From the NCBI GenBank assembly GCA_944358895.1, contig CALVSB010000005.1, positions 1 through 64,000 of the forward strand: DNA of 64,000 nt. Reading direction: 5' to 3'. Shown here one piece after another: positions 2,096-33,425 of this stretch; positions within the stretch are counted from its first letter, which is position 1, and every line of letters starts with the position of its first letter. This DNA comes from an uncultured Bacilli bacterium (GTDB taxonomy: Bacteria; Bacillota_I; Bacilli_A; RFN20; CAG-826). A program made the translations under genes and the position numbers. The notes beneath the pieces were generated by a model that worked only from the letters and a program-made list of their open reading frames with translations, was not told the origin of the DNA and made no database searches.

Positions 2096-2498
2096 GGGGT
2101 CGTTCTGGTTTTGACGGGGAATGATTCCGGCTTGGACAGCAGTGGCGTGGCGAGCCTAAACGCCAACCAACAATAACTGACAACAGTTATCTCTATGCGA
2201 AGCCCGCGATGCGCGCTTCGTATGCTTGCGCCTGATCGGTAGCCTACGGGTTCCTCGGCATTGATCCGAGGGCAGCACGTCTCCCGGCCATTTAGCGCCT
2301 ATTGGCCGGTGCGGGCGTCATTAAAGGCGATAAGCGCTTAGCCTCGGCTGAGGCGAAGCGACGAAAATTCTGTCCAGCCTAGCCCTTCCGACTTTGGCTT
2401 TGTCAGTCGGGTGGGCGAAGTCCTAGACCTAGCCTAAACTGTAGGCGTTCTCGTCGGGTCTTCTTCGGACAGGGGTTCGATTCCCCTCGGCTCCACCA
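2096..2498 (+). ncRNA. ssrA: Transfer-messenger RNA (tmRNA)
   Basis: tmRNA rescues ribosomes stalled on broken mRNAs and tags the nascent peptide for proteolysis. The 5' end (GGGGTCG followed by TTCTGGTTTTGACGGG) pairs with the 3' end CGGCTCC-ACCA to form the alanine-tRNA-like acceptor stem. The T-arm GGACAGGGGTTCGATTCCCC and an encoded CCA are present, and the ~400 nt length is normal. The most plausible tag frame runs from about 2179 to the TGA at 2233-2235 and reads DNSYLYAKPAMRASYACA. It is longer than usual and ends in YACA, not ALAA, which recalls the long Mollicutes tags ending in FAFA-type sequences. A hairpin (CGAAGC/GCTTCG) spans the tag region, as in helix 5 of known tmRNAs. The resume codon is inferred; the gene identity is secure. 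Confidence 0.96.
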
Positions 2499-29817: not shown

Positions 29818-30468
29818 ATGGCATCGCGGAAGCGCCGCTTCCTTGCTCTCGGGCTGACCCTTCTATCGCTTTCCTGCGTCGGTCTCTTTTCCATTGCTTT
29901 TGCTTCTTGGAGTTTCGATGAGGCAGGGGCGGCGGGGCCGGCCGTTATCTCGGGAATCGATGCGAACGTAGGTACGGTCGTCGATTTCAGCGGCACGTCT
30001 TATCTACGTCTCACTACTTCTTCAGTTTCTGCCTTCAACGAGCAATATGGGTTTGTTCAACCAGATGGCTCCTTTGGGAATAGCGGATCGGTCGCGGCTC
30101 TCTTTTACGTAAATGGCAGCGGTATTTCAGATAAGCTTGGCGGCAGCCAGTTCGGCATTAAGGTTACCGGTGGCTTTGGAGATAATGCTTTTGCACTTTC
30201 CGGCAGCTACGACTACGCCTTTGGGGCGGGCAATATCTCTGAGATTGCTTCGGCAGAGCCGTATCGAGTCGACGGAAGCACAAAAACCCCGGGGAGCGAT
30301 GGGAGTGTAACGACTGACCTTCTTTCTGCGGCGGATATGACCACCGTCTCTTGGTTCTGCATTTGGTTTGATTTTAGCGTTCCGGATTCGTCGGCATGGC
30401 CGACTTTGGAATCGGATATTAAGGCTGCTGGGCTTAATTTGAGCATCCTTTTGGAGGCGAGGTCCTAG
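29818..30468 (+). CDS. Exported protein with TasA/camelysin-like signal region
   Basis: The 216-residue protein has a basic start (MASRKRRF), a hydrophobic signal segment to about residue 28, and then FASWSFDE. A short W/F motif just after the signal peptide is reminiscent of TasA/camelysin-type secreted fibre proteins, but no SipW peptidase is in the window and the rest is not diagnostic. The mature region is Gly/Ser-rich and predicted beta, with no cysteine-rich or catalytic motif. It is followed after 2 nt by the Hint-domain surface protein, which has a similar SSW motif after its own signal peptide. The two are therefore one operon and probably one surface system. GTG 29803 is an alternative start. 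Confidence 0.65.
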   Translation: MASRKRRFLALGLTLLSLSCVGLFSIAFASWSFDEAGAAGPAVISGIDANVGTVVDFSGTSYLRLTTSSVSAFNEQYGFVQPDGSFGNSGSVAALFYVNGSGISDKLGGSQFGIKVTGGFGDNAFALSGSYDYAFGAGNISEIASAEPYRVDGSTKTPGSDGSVTTDLLSAADMTTVSWFCIWFDFSVPDSSAWPTLESDIKAAGLNLSILLEARS

Positions 30469-30470
30469 CC

Positions 30471-33425
30471 ATGAGAAAGAAGCTCGGGCTCGCCTTCCTG
30501 CTTAGTTTAGGGATCGTTGCTACGACGACCCTTGGTTTTTCTTCGTGGGTCATACCGGCATTATCTTTTTCGGCCAGCCCATCAATAAATGATTCGTCGG
30601 ATGCCGTTGCATATGTTCGGACGGATGGAAATAGTGATAGATATTTTTGGGACCTTGGCAAAGCAATTAATTTCGCAAATTCGTTTTCTTCTGCATCCGT
30701 TTATGTGATTCCAGGAGTAGGAACTCGAGACGATCCGATTCTTCTTGAAGGTGGCCGTAATGTTTCATCAGGGAGAAACGTTGTGACCCTCTCTTCAGGC
30801 GTTTCGCTGTACCTTCCTTTTGAAGGTGAAAACTATGAGCAAAGAGGGTACGATGCAAACGGCTTTGCTGATTCTTCGTGGACGAAAGTACAGACAAATT
30901 TGAAGTCCAATGTGCTGCTTGCCAGTGAAACTGATTTGTACATTGAATCGGGTGCGAATCTTTTCATAGGTGGGCAAGTCGGGGATACCGGTTCCAATGT
31001 TATTGGAGTAACTTCTGGTTCATATGCTCAGTTGCTCTTAGGAGAGTCGTCATCGATTATTTGCAACGGCGGAAACATTCAATGTCTTGGATACATTAAG
31101 CCTCAATTTGAAGAGTACAACGGCGACTCCTCCTATGCCGTTGGTGAAAGCCTTGACGGCGTTCTTGTTCACATTAATAGCGGTACTCTTATTTCGCCAA
31201 TTGCATTTTATGATTTTCGTGGCGGTGCGCTTTTATCCGGTCTGAAAACTGCAAACATTTTTCCGCTTTCAGTGTTTGACTTGCCAAATATTTCTTGCCC
31301 TTTGTTAATTGAAAGTTCAGCTACCTATAAGGTCTATCTTGAGATGTATTCCGGTTCGATGAAACAACACTTTCAAGGCGATTTTATCTTTTCCGGGGAA
31401 GGTGGGGTCATCGACTTAGCTGATGGTGCATCCTTGCTTTTAGATTACACCCCGTCATTAACGCAAAATGTTGATGGCATGCATGTTGGGCTGACTTACA
31501 ACGACTATTCTTCTCCGGCCTATATCAAGGACGGGTCAAATGGCAATGAAGGACGGACAAAAGTCGTCATAGATGGTGGCGCCACGTTCAATAACATCAA
31601 AGCCAAGCTCTATATTGAAGTTTCTACAGAGGGAATGTTTGTTCCCTTTTCTTGGAAATGGGATATTATCGCGAAAGGCGGCGACTTCATATTTAATGTG
31701 AATACGAAATTTCTTCCTGGTGCTGATGTTTTGGTTGAAAAAGACGCGAATTTATTCTTAAACGGGATGACCATTTTCTACCAAAACTGGAATAGTTCAA
31801 TCGAAGCTTCTGCAAAGTACCCATCAAATTTGCCTGCCGCTAAATTAGTGAACAACGGCAACATTCATATCAATGGTTCTTTTGGGGGCATAATCGAAAC
31901 TTCTTTAAGAGGTGCCGAAATAAATTTGGAATCTGGTGCAAGCTTTTCGACATCGTCGCCTGAAGCAACTACCATGGGTGTCAATTTGGGCCTTATTCAA
32001 TTAGTTAATACAGAAAATGTTGTTGAGTCTGCTAGAGCTTATCTGAAGGACAGCGAGCAGGACACTAATTTTGAGCTTAAGGAACTTTCTTTGTATCAGG
32101 GATGCAGTCGTTTTATCAGCGACGGTTCTTGCTTCTACCCGTATTATAAGTTAACGAGCGTTCCTATCGAAGTCGCTGAGTACGTTGGTAGACCAAGCGG
32201 GGAATATGTGACATTCACAGTTGATTCAAATGGGCAATCCATCGATATGGACGAAAGCGGAGGAACGGTCGAAGCTTCGGGGGCGATTAGGCTTACCAAT
32301 CTCCGCAATGTGGCTTATGCGTATTATTCCGGACTAGAAAACGAAATTTACTTCCCGGACGCAAGTTCCGATACCATTACTGCTGCCATTGTTGAAGGAC
32401 ACTCTCTTATTGTTGTTCCGGCGTCGCCTGTTTCATCAATGAATGGGCAGGCAATAGGGAAACATTATACCGTAACTATGACCGTTGCCTCTTCGAGGAC
32501 CGGCAATTCTTGGAGTGTGGTATTCAATCAGACAGACAATAGCGATAACAACTCGACAAGCGCGTTCAGCGGCATTGATGTTAAAGTTGGCGATCTTTTA
32601 ACCGCTTCACTGGATTACCACGGGAAAGACGAGAACACTGGCACTTGGAGCACCAATGCCGGATTTGATATCAGTGGAAATTCTGAGAACGTTTATACAT
32701 TTAGAGTTCTTTATGGTGCAGCCACCAATGGCCTTACAGTTACTCATAGCTTTGACAATTCGGTATGCGTAATTGAGGGCACGCTGATAACGATGGCCGA
32801 CGGAAGCCAAAAACCGGTTGAAGATATTGTGCGTTCTGACATGCTCATGGTTTTCAACCACGAAACCGGACACCTTGATAAATCGCCTGTGTTCTTCGTT
32901 GAAGGAATAGAAGAGCAGTATGATGTCATGACCTTGACGTTCGATGACGGGACGACTCTAGGGCTCGTTAATGAACACGGATTGTTCGATGCAAAGATTA
33001 AAAAATATGTTTATGTAAATGAAATTAATTATGAAAGCTTCATTGGGGATCAATTCTTAAAACAAGATGGATCTCTGACAACTCTCCAAAATGTGTCTAT
33101 TTCGGAAAAAACAGTAAAGGCTTACCACATTGCTTCTGAGTATCACTTGAATGTGTTCACGAACGGCATTCTTGGAATTAATGGATCATTGAACGGACTT
33201 TTCAACATCTTTGATTTGGATGATTCCTTGAAATATGACGAGGAAAAGAAAGCAAGCGATATTGAGAAATATGGTTTGTTTACTTATGAAGACTTCAAGG
33301 ATTGGGGACCTTATGAGCTGTATGAGAAATTCCCCGCTTCCTATCTCAAAGTTTCTTTGGGGAAAGGCCTAACCACGTTGGAAAGTTTGGCGAGACGGTT
33401 CGAAGAATTCAGGTATCTATTATAA
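30471..33425 (+). CDS. Secreted beta-solenoid protein with C-terminal Hint domain
   Basis: The 984-residue exported protein has a signal peptide (about 1-24) followed by about 700 residues with repeated strand-turn motifs. These include IESGANLFIGG, LADGASLLLDY, IDGGATFNN and LESGASFSTS, typical of a beta-solenoid adhesin-like domain. From C766 the sequence is a Hint (hedgehog/intein) domain. Block A reads CVIEGTLITMADGSQKPVEDI, block B LVNEHGLF with H836, and the end YHLNVFTNGILGIN (H892 to N904). An 80-residue tail follows, containing GLFNIFDLDDSLKYDEE and YLKVSLGKGLTTLESL. Hint domains cleave their N-terminal peptide bond through a Cys thioester. Total Hint plus tail is 219 residues, like hedgehog C-terminal domains. 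The gene is more A+T-rich than its neighbours. GGAGGCGAGG is the ribosome-binding site. Confidence 0.88.
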   Translation: MRKKLGLAFLLSLGIVATTTLGFSSWVIPALSFSASPSINDSSDAVAYVRTDGNSDRYFWDLGKAINFANSFSSASVYVIPGVGTRDDPILLEGGRNVSSGRNVVTLSSGVSLYLPFEGENYEQRGYDANGFADSSWTKVQTNLKSNVLLASETDLYIESGANLFIGGQVGDTGSNVIGVTSGSYAQLLLGESSSIICNGGNIQCLGYIKPQFEEYNGDSSYAVGESLDGVLVHINSGTLISPIAFYDFRGGALLSGLKTANIFPLSVFDLPNISCPLLIESSATYKVYLEMYSGSMKQHFQGDFIFSGEGGVIDLADGASLLLDYTPSLTQNVDGMHVGLTYNDYSSPAYIKDGSNGNEGRTKVVIDGGATFNNIKAKLYIEVSTEGMFVPFSWKWDIIAKGGDFIFNVNTKFLPGADVLVEKDANLFLNGMTIFYQNWNSSIEASAKYPSNLPAAKLVNNGNIHINGSFGGIIETSLRGAEINLESGASFSTSSPEATTMGVNLGLIQLVNTENVVESARAYLKDSEQDTNFELKELSLYQGCSRFISDGSCFYPYYKLTSVPIEVAEYVGRPSGEYVTFTVDSNGQSIDMDESGGTVEASGAIRLTNLRNVAYAYYSGLENEIYFPDASSDTITAAIVEGHSLIVVPASPVSSMNGQAIGKHYTVTMTVASSRTGNSWSVVFNQTDNSDNNSTSAFSGIDVKVGDLLTASLDYHGKDENTGTWSTNAGFDISGNSENVYTFRVLYGAATNGLTVTHSFDNSVCVIEGTLITMADGSQKPVEDIVRSDMLMVFNHETGHLDKSPVFFVEGIEEQYDVMTLTFDDGTTLGLVNEHGLFDAKIKKYVYVNEINYESFIGDQFLKQDGSLTTLQNVSISEKTVKAYHIASEYHLNVFTNGILGINGSLNGLFNIFDLDDSLKYDEEKKASDIEKYGLFTYEDFKDWGPYELYEKFPASYLKVSLGKGLTTLESLARRFEEFRYLL

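Follow-up and report, generated by a model that had tools for sequence, protein, structure and literature searches.

What a non-splicing Hint domain does to the bacterial protein that it ends is a long-open question, and we know of no settled role for such domains in bacteria. The question is raised, and made directly testable, by a gene in the window (the whole 64,000-nt stretch of DNA analyzed here, contig C5 of the 1.46 Mb source genome G000), whose predicted surface protein closes with a Hint domain and a helical tail (Table 1). The answer that we consider probable is that residues 766-984 form a Hint-plus-tail module that processes itself, cleaving at its N-terminal side without splicing, its thioester being resolved by water or by an acceptor.

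Table 1. The two-gene locus and the parts of its Hint-bearing protein, in window positions.
Feature	Position	Strand	Basis
Upstream partner gene, ~215-aa predicted secreted protein; GFaSW-type signal region, C/Y..GFv.dg motif	29818..30468	+	Recurs upstream in family loci
GGAGG ribosome-binding site for Hint gene, within 3' end of partner gene	30453..30457	+	Sequence read directly
Hint-bearing surface protein, 984 aa	30471..33425	+	ORF read
Putative signal peptide, residues 1-27, MRKKLGLAFLLSLGIVATTTLGFSSWV	30471..30551	+	By eye; pattern common to family
N-terminal surface part, residues 28-765; own family; solenoid-like by appearance only	30552..32765	+	N-part profile; Hint-less homologues exist
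Cys766, Hint Cys1; predicted N-S acyl shift at V765-C766	32766..32768	+	Cys in 62/62 members
Hint domain, residues 766-904	32766..33182	+	Profile and structure matches
Glu811, position 46 counted from Cys1 (Asp46 in Hedgehog)	32901..32903	+	Acidic in 23/61 members
His836, block-B His	32976..32978	+	His in 57/59 members
Ser889	33135..33137	+	Thr or Ser in 55/57 members
Asn894, block-F Asn	33150..33152	+	Asn in 54/57 members
C-terminal tail, residues 905-984, helical in model; motifs GLFNiF, DIekYGL, KG	33183..33422	+	Alignment and AlphaFold2 model

The Hint domain and its active-site residues

Read directly, the open reading frame is intact, with an ATG start and a GGAGG 13 nt upstream of it. 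Most of what the original prediction had read from the letters stands: CVIEGTLITMADGSQ begins at C766, VNEHGLFD contains the block-B residue H836, counting gives 219 residues from the cysteine onward (766-984) and 80 in the tail (905-984), and the putative signal peptide is plausible by eye, its pattern recurring in homologues. The stretch YHLNVFTNGILGIN is also present, at 891-904 instead of the predicted 892-904, an error of one position. The beta-solenoid repeats proposed for the N-terminal part are not demonstrated: no repeat unit was found in the DNA, and the N-terminal part matches neither Pfam nor PDB.

Taken singly, the 984-aa protein has its best Pfam match, below the cut-off, to PT-HINT (E 3e-4) and a weak match to PDB entry 6y75 (E 0.03). 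A 33-member family profile matches the solved Hint domains of BIL2 (6y75, E 5e-13) and Hedgehog (1at0, E 3e-5), and 25 of the 33 members individually match the Pfam Hint family PF01079. An AlphaFold2 model of residues 756-984, built on an alignment of the window and related-loci sequences only, shows the Hint beta-fold (pLDDT 84, pTM 0.78) and is matched by Foldseek to Hint structures at E 1.6e-10, with DALI-scale Z of 13-18.6: about residues 761-907 align with BIL2 over 142 residues at 2.2 A (Z 18.6), and the same model reaches Z 16.9 to the Clostridium thermocellum BIL domain and Z 15.4 to Hedgehog. Together, the family profile and the modeled structure matches settle the predicted Hint fold at the C-terminus, and both checks proposed at the outset, by Hint profiles and by structure prediction, thus came out in its favor.

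Residue counts were taken over 65 non-redundant related sequences (column totals 57-62). The residues by which the HINT superfamily is recognized, a Cys, Ser or Thr at position 1 and the block-B His, are present as C766 and H836; Cys1 is invariant among members down to about 26% identity and the His nearly so, and the family alignment holds no other conserved Cys column. Position 889 and Asn894 are also strongly conserved there (Table 1). On the Hint domain, omega is about 0.06 in the closest pair with G030, a rough value given high dS, and dN/dS on Hint plus tail is 0.17-0.19 in two closer pairs, placing the Hint domain under purifying selection. The residue preceding Cys1 is free to vary, and several members carry a Gly/Ser-rich linker before it, as would suit cleavage at this point, although in the window protein the residue is Val, versus Gly in Hedgehog.

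Other residues fit cleavage less well. The block-B Thr (TxxH), usual but not universal in the HINT superfamily, and the F-block Asp usually assist the Hint reaction. The window protein has Val833 in place of the former, which is Thr or Ser in only 8/60 members, and the latter is replaced, mostly by Ser, in the family alignment. Loss of the Thr speaks against easy thioester formation, and the two losses, along with the clean gain and loss of the module, would suit an inert Hint that stays uncleaved as a structural or binding C-terminal domain. We regard this as unlikely: an absolute Cys1 and a near-absolute His in widely diverged members point to residues that serve chemistry rather than fold.

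Splicing had been judged improbable from the outset, and the family alignment agrees. The terminal Asn is gone in 55/57 members (kept in 2/57), the penultimate His is absent and the F-block Asp is lost, so Asn cyclization and splicing are not expected. The C-terminal His-Asn and +1 Cys, Ser or Thr of class 1 inteins are lacking, the +1 residue being Gly or other, as is the conserved C-terminal His-Asn of A-type BIL domains; the motif pattern of B-type BIL domains, which have intein motifs without the C-terminal motif and cleave N-terminally, fits in part, the block-B Thr being missing. Blocks A, B and F are intein-like, and the window protein does have Asn904 at the block-G position, but a degenerate or active splicing intein is highly improbable given these C-terminal losses and a host protein that is not a conserved essential one. 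Equally improbable is a polymorphic-toxin module that frees a C-terminal toxin, despite PT-HINT being the best single-sequence Pfam match: about 60 proteins share a conserved tail instead of a variable one, the family loci show no gene recurring downstream that might confer immunity, and the window's next gene encodes a DUF402/NtdP-like phosphatase. We reject both readings, since the tail is conserved, an immunity gene is absent and the C-terminal residues are missing.

The tail, its distribution and the host envelope

A search with a profile of only the tail gave matches at 62 places, spread over 46 genomes of the order. Every intact one coincides with a Hint match, and the tail matches apart from Hint are few and broken remnants; the Hint domain and the 80-residue tail therefore form one obligate unit, as Hint and SRR do in Hedgehog. 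Residues 905-984 match nothing in Pfam or in PDB sequences, and the tail modeled alone (AlphaFold2 pLDDT 70) lacks a Foldseek match, which is weak evidence and does not imply a new fold. No description of the Hint-tail family was found in open PMC papers, and the tail is newly recognized and apparently undescribed. Homologues in other gut Bacillota bear out the predicted conservation of its GLFNIFD motif.

About 65 related sequences were collected. The source genome holds three copies of the module, which occurs in 49/279 genomes of the order, in other families of the class, and in Clostridia MAGs from horse and goat and a Ruminococcaceae bin; MAG contigs may be mis-binned, and frames are broken in G030 and a few others and were left as they are. 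In nearly all members the Hint-tail unit lies at the extreme C-terminus, as expected of a module that cleaves itself from what precedes it.

Several other architectures were observed. In L069:45-6962 the Hint-tail lies mid-protein, at about residues 971-1178 of a 2,326-aa ORF, and in L140:1-14000, from another family of the class, it ends a 4,168-aa open frame. A second architecture, an N-terminal TM-like segment followed by Hint-tail, is found in L144, L145, L155, L058 and L067 (L154 is similar), with Listeria-Bacteroides repeats confirmed ahead of the Hint-tail in L144. These genes have a gene of about 900-950 aa directly upstream, whose products in the first five loci are mutually related and, where scanned, match nothing in Pfam. 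In L035:3310-6699 (Ruminococcaceae UBA1734) a Hint-tail protein with a prepilin-like N-terminus and five Flg_new repeats follows a prepilin-like gene. The Hint gene is broken, by a frame break or as remnants, in L046, L059, L072 and L073, so the module is often lost.

The original prediction had likened the Hint domain and its tail to the Hedgehog unit in size, and had named a lipid or a wall sugar as possible acceptor. The tail is indeed SRR-like in size, but membership in the Hedgehog family is not borne out: there is no detectable SRR homology, and position 46, Asp in Hedgehog (D243 in human SHH; PMC7906309), is acidic in only 23/61 members (D 12, E 11). A catalytic Asp or His at this position is thus ruled out as a family feature. 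What resembles Hog is an obligate helical tail after Hint, which matches nothing in sequence or fold; the SRR itself is without a solved structure (PMC7242414).

In the source genome, searches in which the controls gave matches find no sortase and no PBP transpeptidase, and the bacterium appears to lack a cell wall. Sortase occurs in 4/279 genomes of the order and PBPs in 30/279, mainly in other families, a pattern that seems to resemble that of RFN20 as described in PMC10868615. A wall sugar is an unlikely acceptor, since the genome has neither enzyme, and the module is found in the order with and without PBPs. The share of genomes with PBPs is about 7/49 among Hint genomes versus 23/230 among others, so PBPs and the module are unlinked, and wall-dependent anchoring is rejected. 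The module as a sortase replacement within the order is rejected too: three of the four sortase genomes also carry it, so the two are not mutually exclusive.

These observations bear on whether the tail might recognize an acceptor, a membrane lipid or a similar alcohol or amine, and bring it to the thioester, anchoring the surface part without wall or sortase. We hold this Hog-like conjugation as a tentative possibility. The obligate helical tail, the missing sortase and transpeptidase and the rarity of sortase in the order are in keeping with it, as are Glu at the Hedgehog Asp46 position and an equal-length alignment of positions 1-72 to Hedgehog; the variability of position 46, the Clostridia MAGs that carry both the module and PBPs, the lack of a replacement anchor in Hint-less alleles and a tail not homologous to SRR argue against it. 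The stricter claim of a bacterial Hog counterpart, in which Hint and a dedicated acceptor-recognition tail conjugate a surface protein to membrane lipid and replace sortase anchoring in wall-less gut Bacilli, seems to us decidedly doubtful.

The operon partner and alleles without the module

The partner gene stops 2 nt before the Hint gene's ATG, and a small protein of this type lies directly upstream in 22 first-set loci, mostly at -15 to +9 nt. With a partner profile built without the held-out loci, 14/14 further genes combining N-part and Hint were directly preceded by a partner, one copy being truncated and about 210 nt away. Within the genus, strong partner matches (E < 1e-10) occur in 11/12 Hint genomes, a figure partly so by construction, versus 1/25 others (Fisher p 2e-7); the sole exception, G006, has the partner with a Hint-less N-part. 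The Hint gene is the second gene of a conserved two-gene operon. The partner also accompanies Hint-less alleles, so it is tied to the N-part and not to Hint, which rules it out as the acceptor. Nor is it TasA/camelysin or another known family by Pfam, NCBIfam or PDB matches.

Other neighborhoods were recorded. L136:4009-8502, L138 and L139 have a conserved gene set in common: two of the products are exported and have GfSaW-type signal regions, and the others are a membrane protein and an AAA-like protein. One of the set is distantly similar to the partner. In L159:1076-6119 and L151:13420-18316 the Hint-tail is on a protein with a partner-like N-terminus (small search, E about 1e-6 to 1e-5), and an 800-aa exported protein that lacks Hint is encoded upstream; a transfer of the module between the operon's two proteins is possible. 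In G188 and G194 the first genes, 800 aa long, match no N-part profile, which leaves any relation to the surface protein unproven. A gene that begins VDATVYQHGEEECGYAALRSFL and recalls C39 peptidase domains adjoins the operon downstream of the surface gene in G025 and G032 (L133 and L066). A tmRNA gene whose tag is DNSYLYAKPAMRASYACA lies at window positions 2096-2498; no other tRNA-type gene was detected in the 64 kb.

Four matches to the N-part profile, in G006, G025, G029 and G035, lack Hint; they fall in at least two places of the N-part tree. The G025 protein is 85% identical over 824 residues to the Hint protein of G032 and stops two residues before Cys1, the DNA for Hint and tail missing; from about 115 nt on the flanks are 86% identical, so the locus is the same. 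In G035, from a sister species, a Hint-less version occupies the window's own locus, between the uracil-DNA glycosylase and 433-aa genes on one side and the DUF402 gene on the other. Hint-less alleles at the same loci mean that the N-part is retained as a product even where the module is absent. Such persistence of N-part and partner is expected if the module removes itself, and also if it is an optional domain, a dispensable accessory that is never cleaved; only one of the four alleles ends clearly at the Cys1 boundary.

For the N-cleaving module that we favor, we infer the chemistry, the cleavage, the order of export and the fate of the thioester as follows. The surface system would be exported and consist of two components, one of which carries the Hint-tail as its C-terminus. 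Once that protein is exported, the V765-C766 bond would undergo an N-S acyl shift through attack by Cys766, with His836 assisting, and residues 28-765 would be left as a thioester. Either water would then release the surface part, or the conserved helical tail would bring in an acceptor nucleophile to be conjugated to it, two outcomes that we judge about evenly balanced; no Asn cyclization or ligation would follow. The mature product would be the N-part acting with its co-encoded partner, as in the natural Hint-less alleles.

Comparison with known Hint systems

The closest fold and profile matches to the window Hint are BIL domains (Tetrahymena BUBL1 BIL2, PDB 6y75/6tmm; C. thermocellum BIL, 2lwy), which likewise place Hint in variable or secreted proteins; the window Hint differs in lacking the C-terminal His-Asn that defines the A-type, in its conserved 80-residue tail and in its fixed C-terminal position. 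Hedgehog Hog, called singular for its covalent ligation to cholesterol (PMC7242414), likewise has its Hint at the C-terminus, with an obligate helical region of similar size behind it, and shares the Cys1 and block-B His and the absence of Asn and a +1 nucleophile, but the bacterial family has no detectable SRR similarity and no block-B Thr, and conserves neither Asp46 nor the -1 Gly. The PT-HINT domains of polymorphic toxins also lie near the C-terminus of bacterial exported proteins, whereas the window family has no variable toxin tip or immunity gene. From other phyla (Myxococcus, Yersinia and others), Buerglin 2008 (PMC2362128) reported bacterial Hint-like proteins with motifs A and B; these too are secreted and have a Hint region of roughly Hog-like length. 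The window system joins a Hint domain to an obligate tail, in a conserved two-gene operon, with alleles that have and lack the module at one locus.
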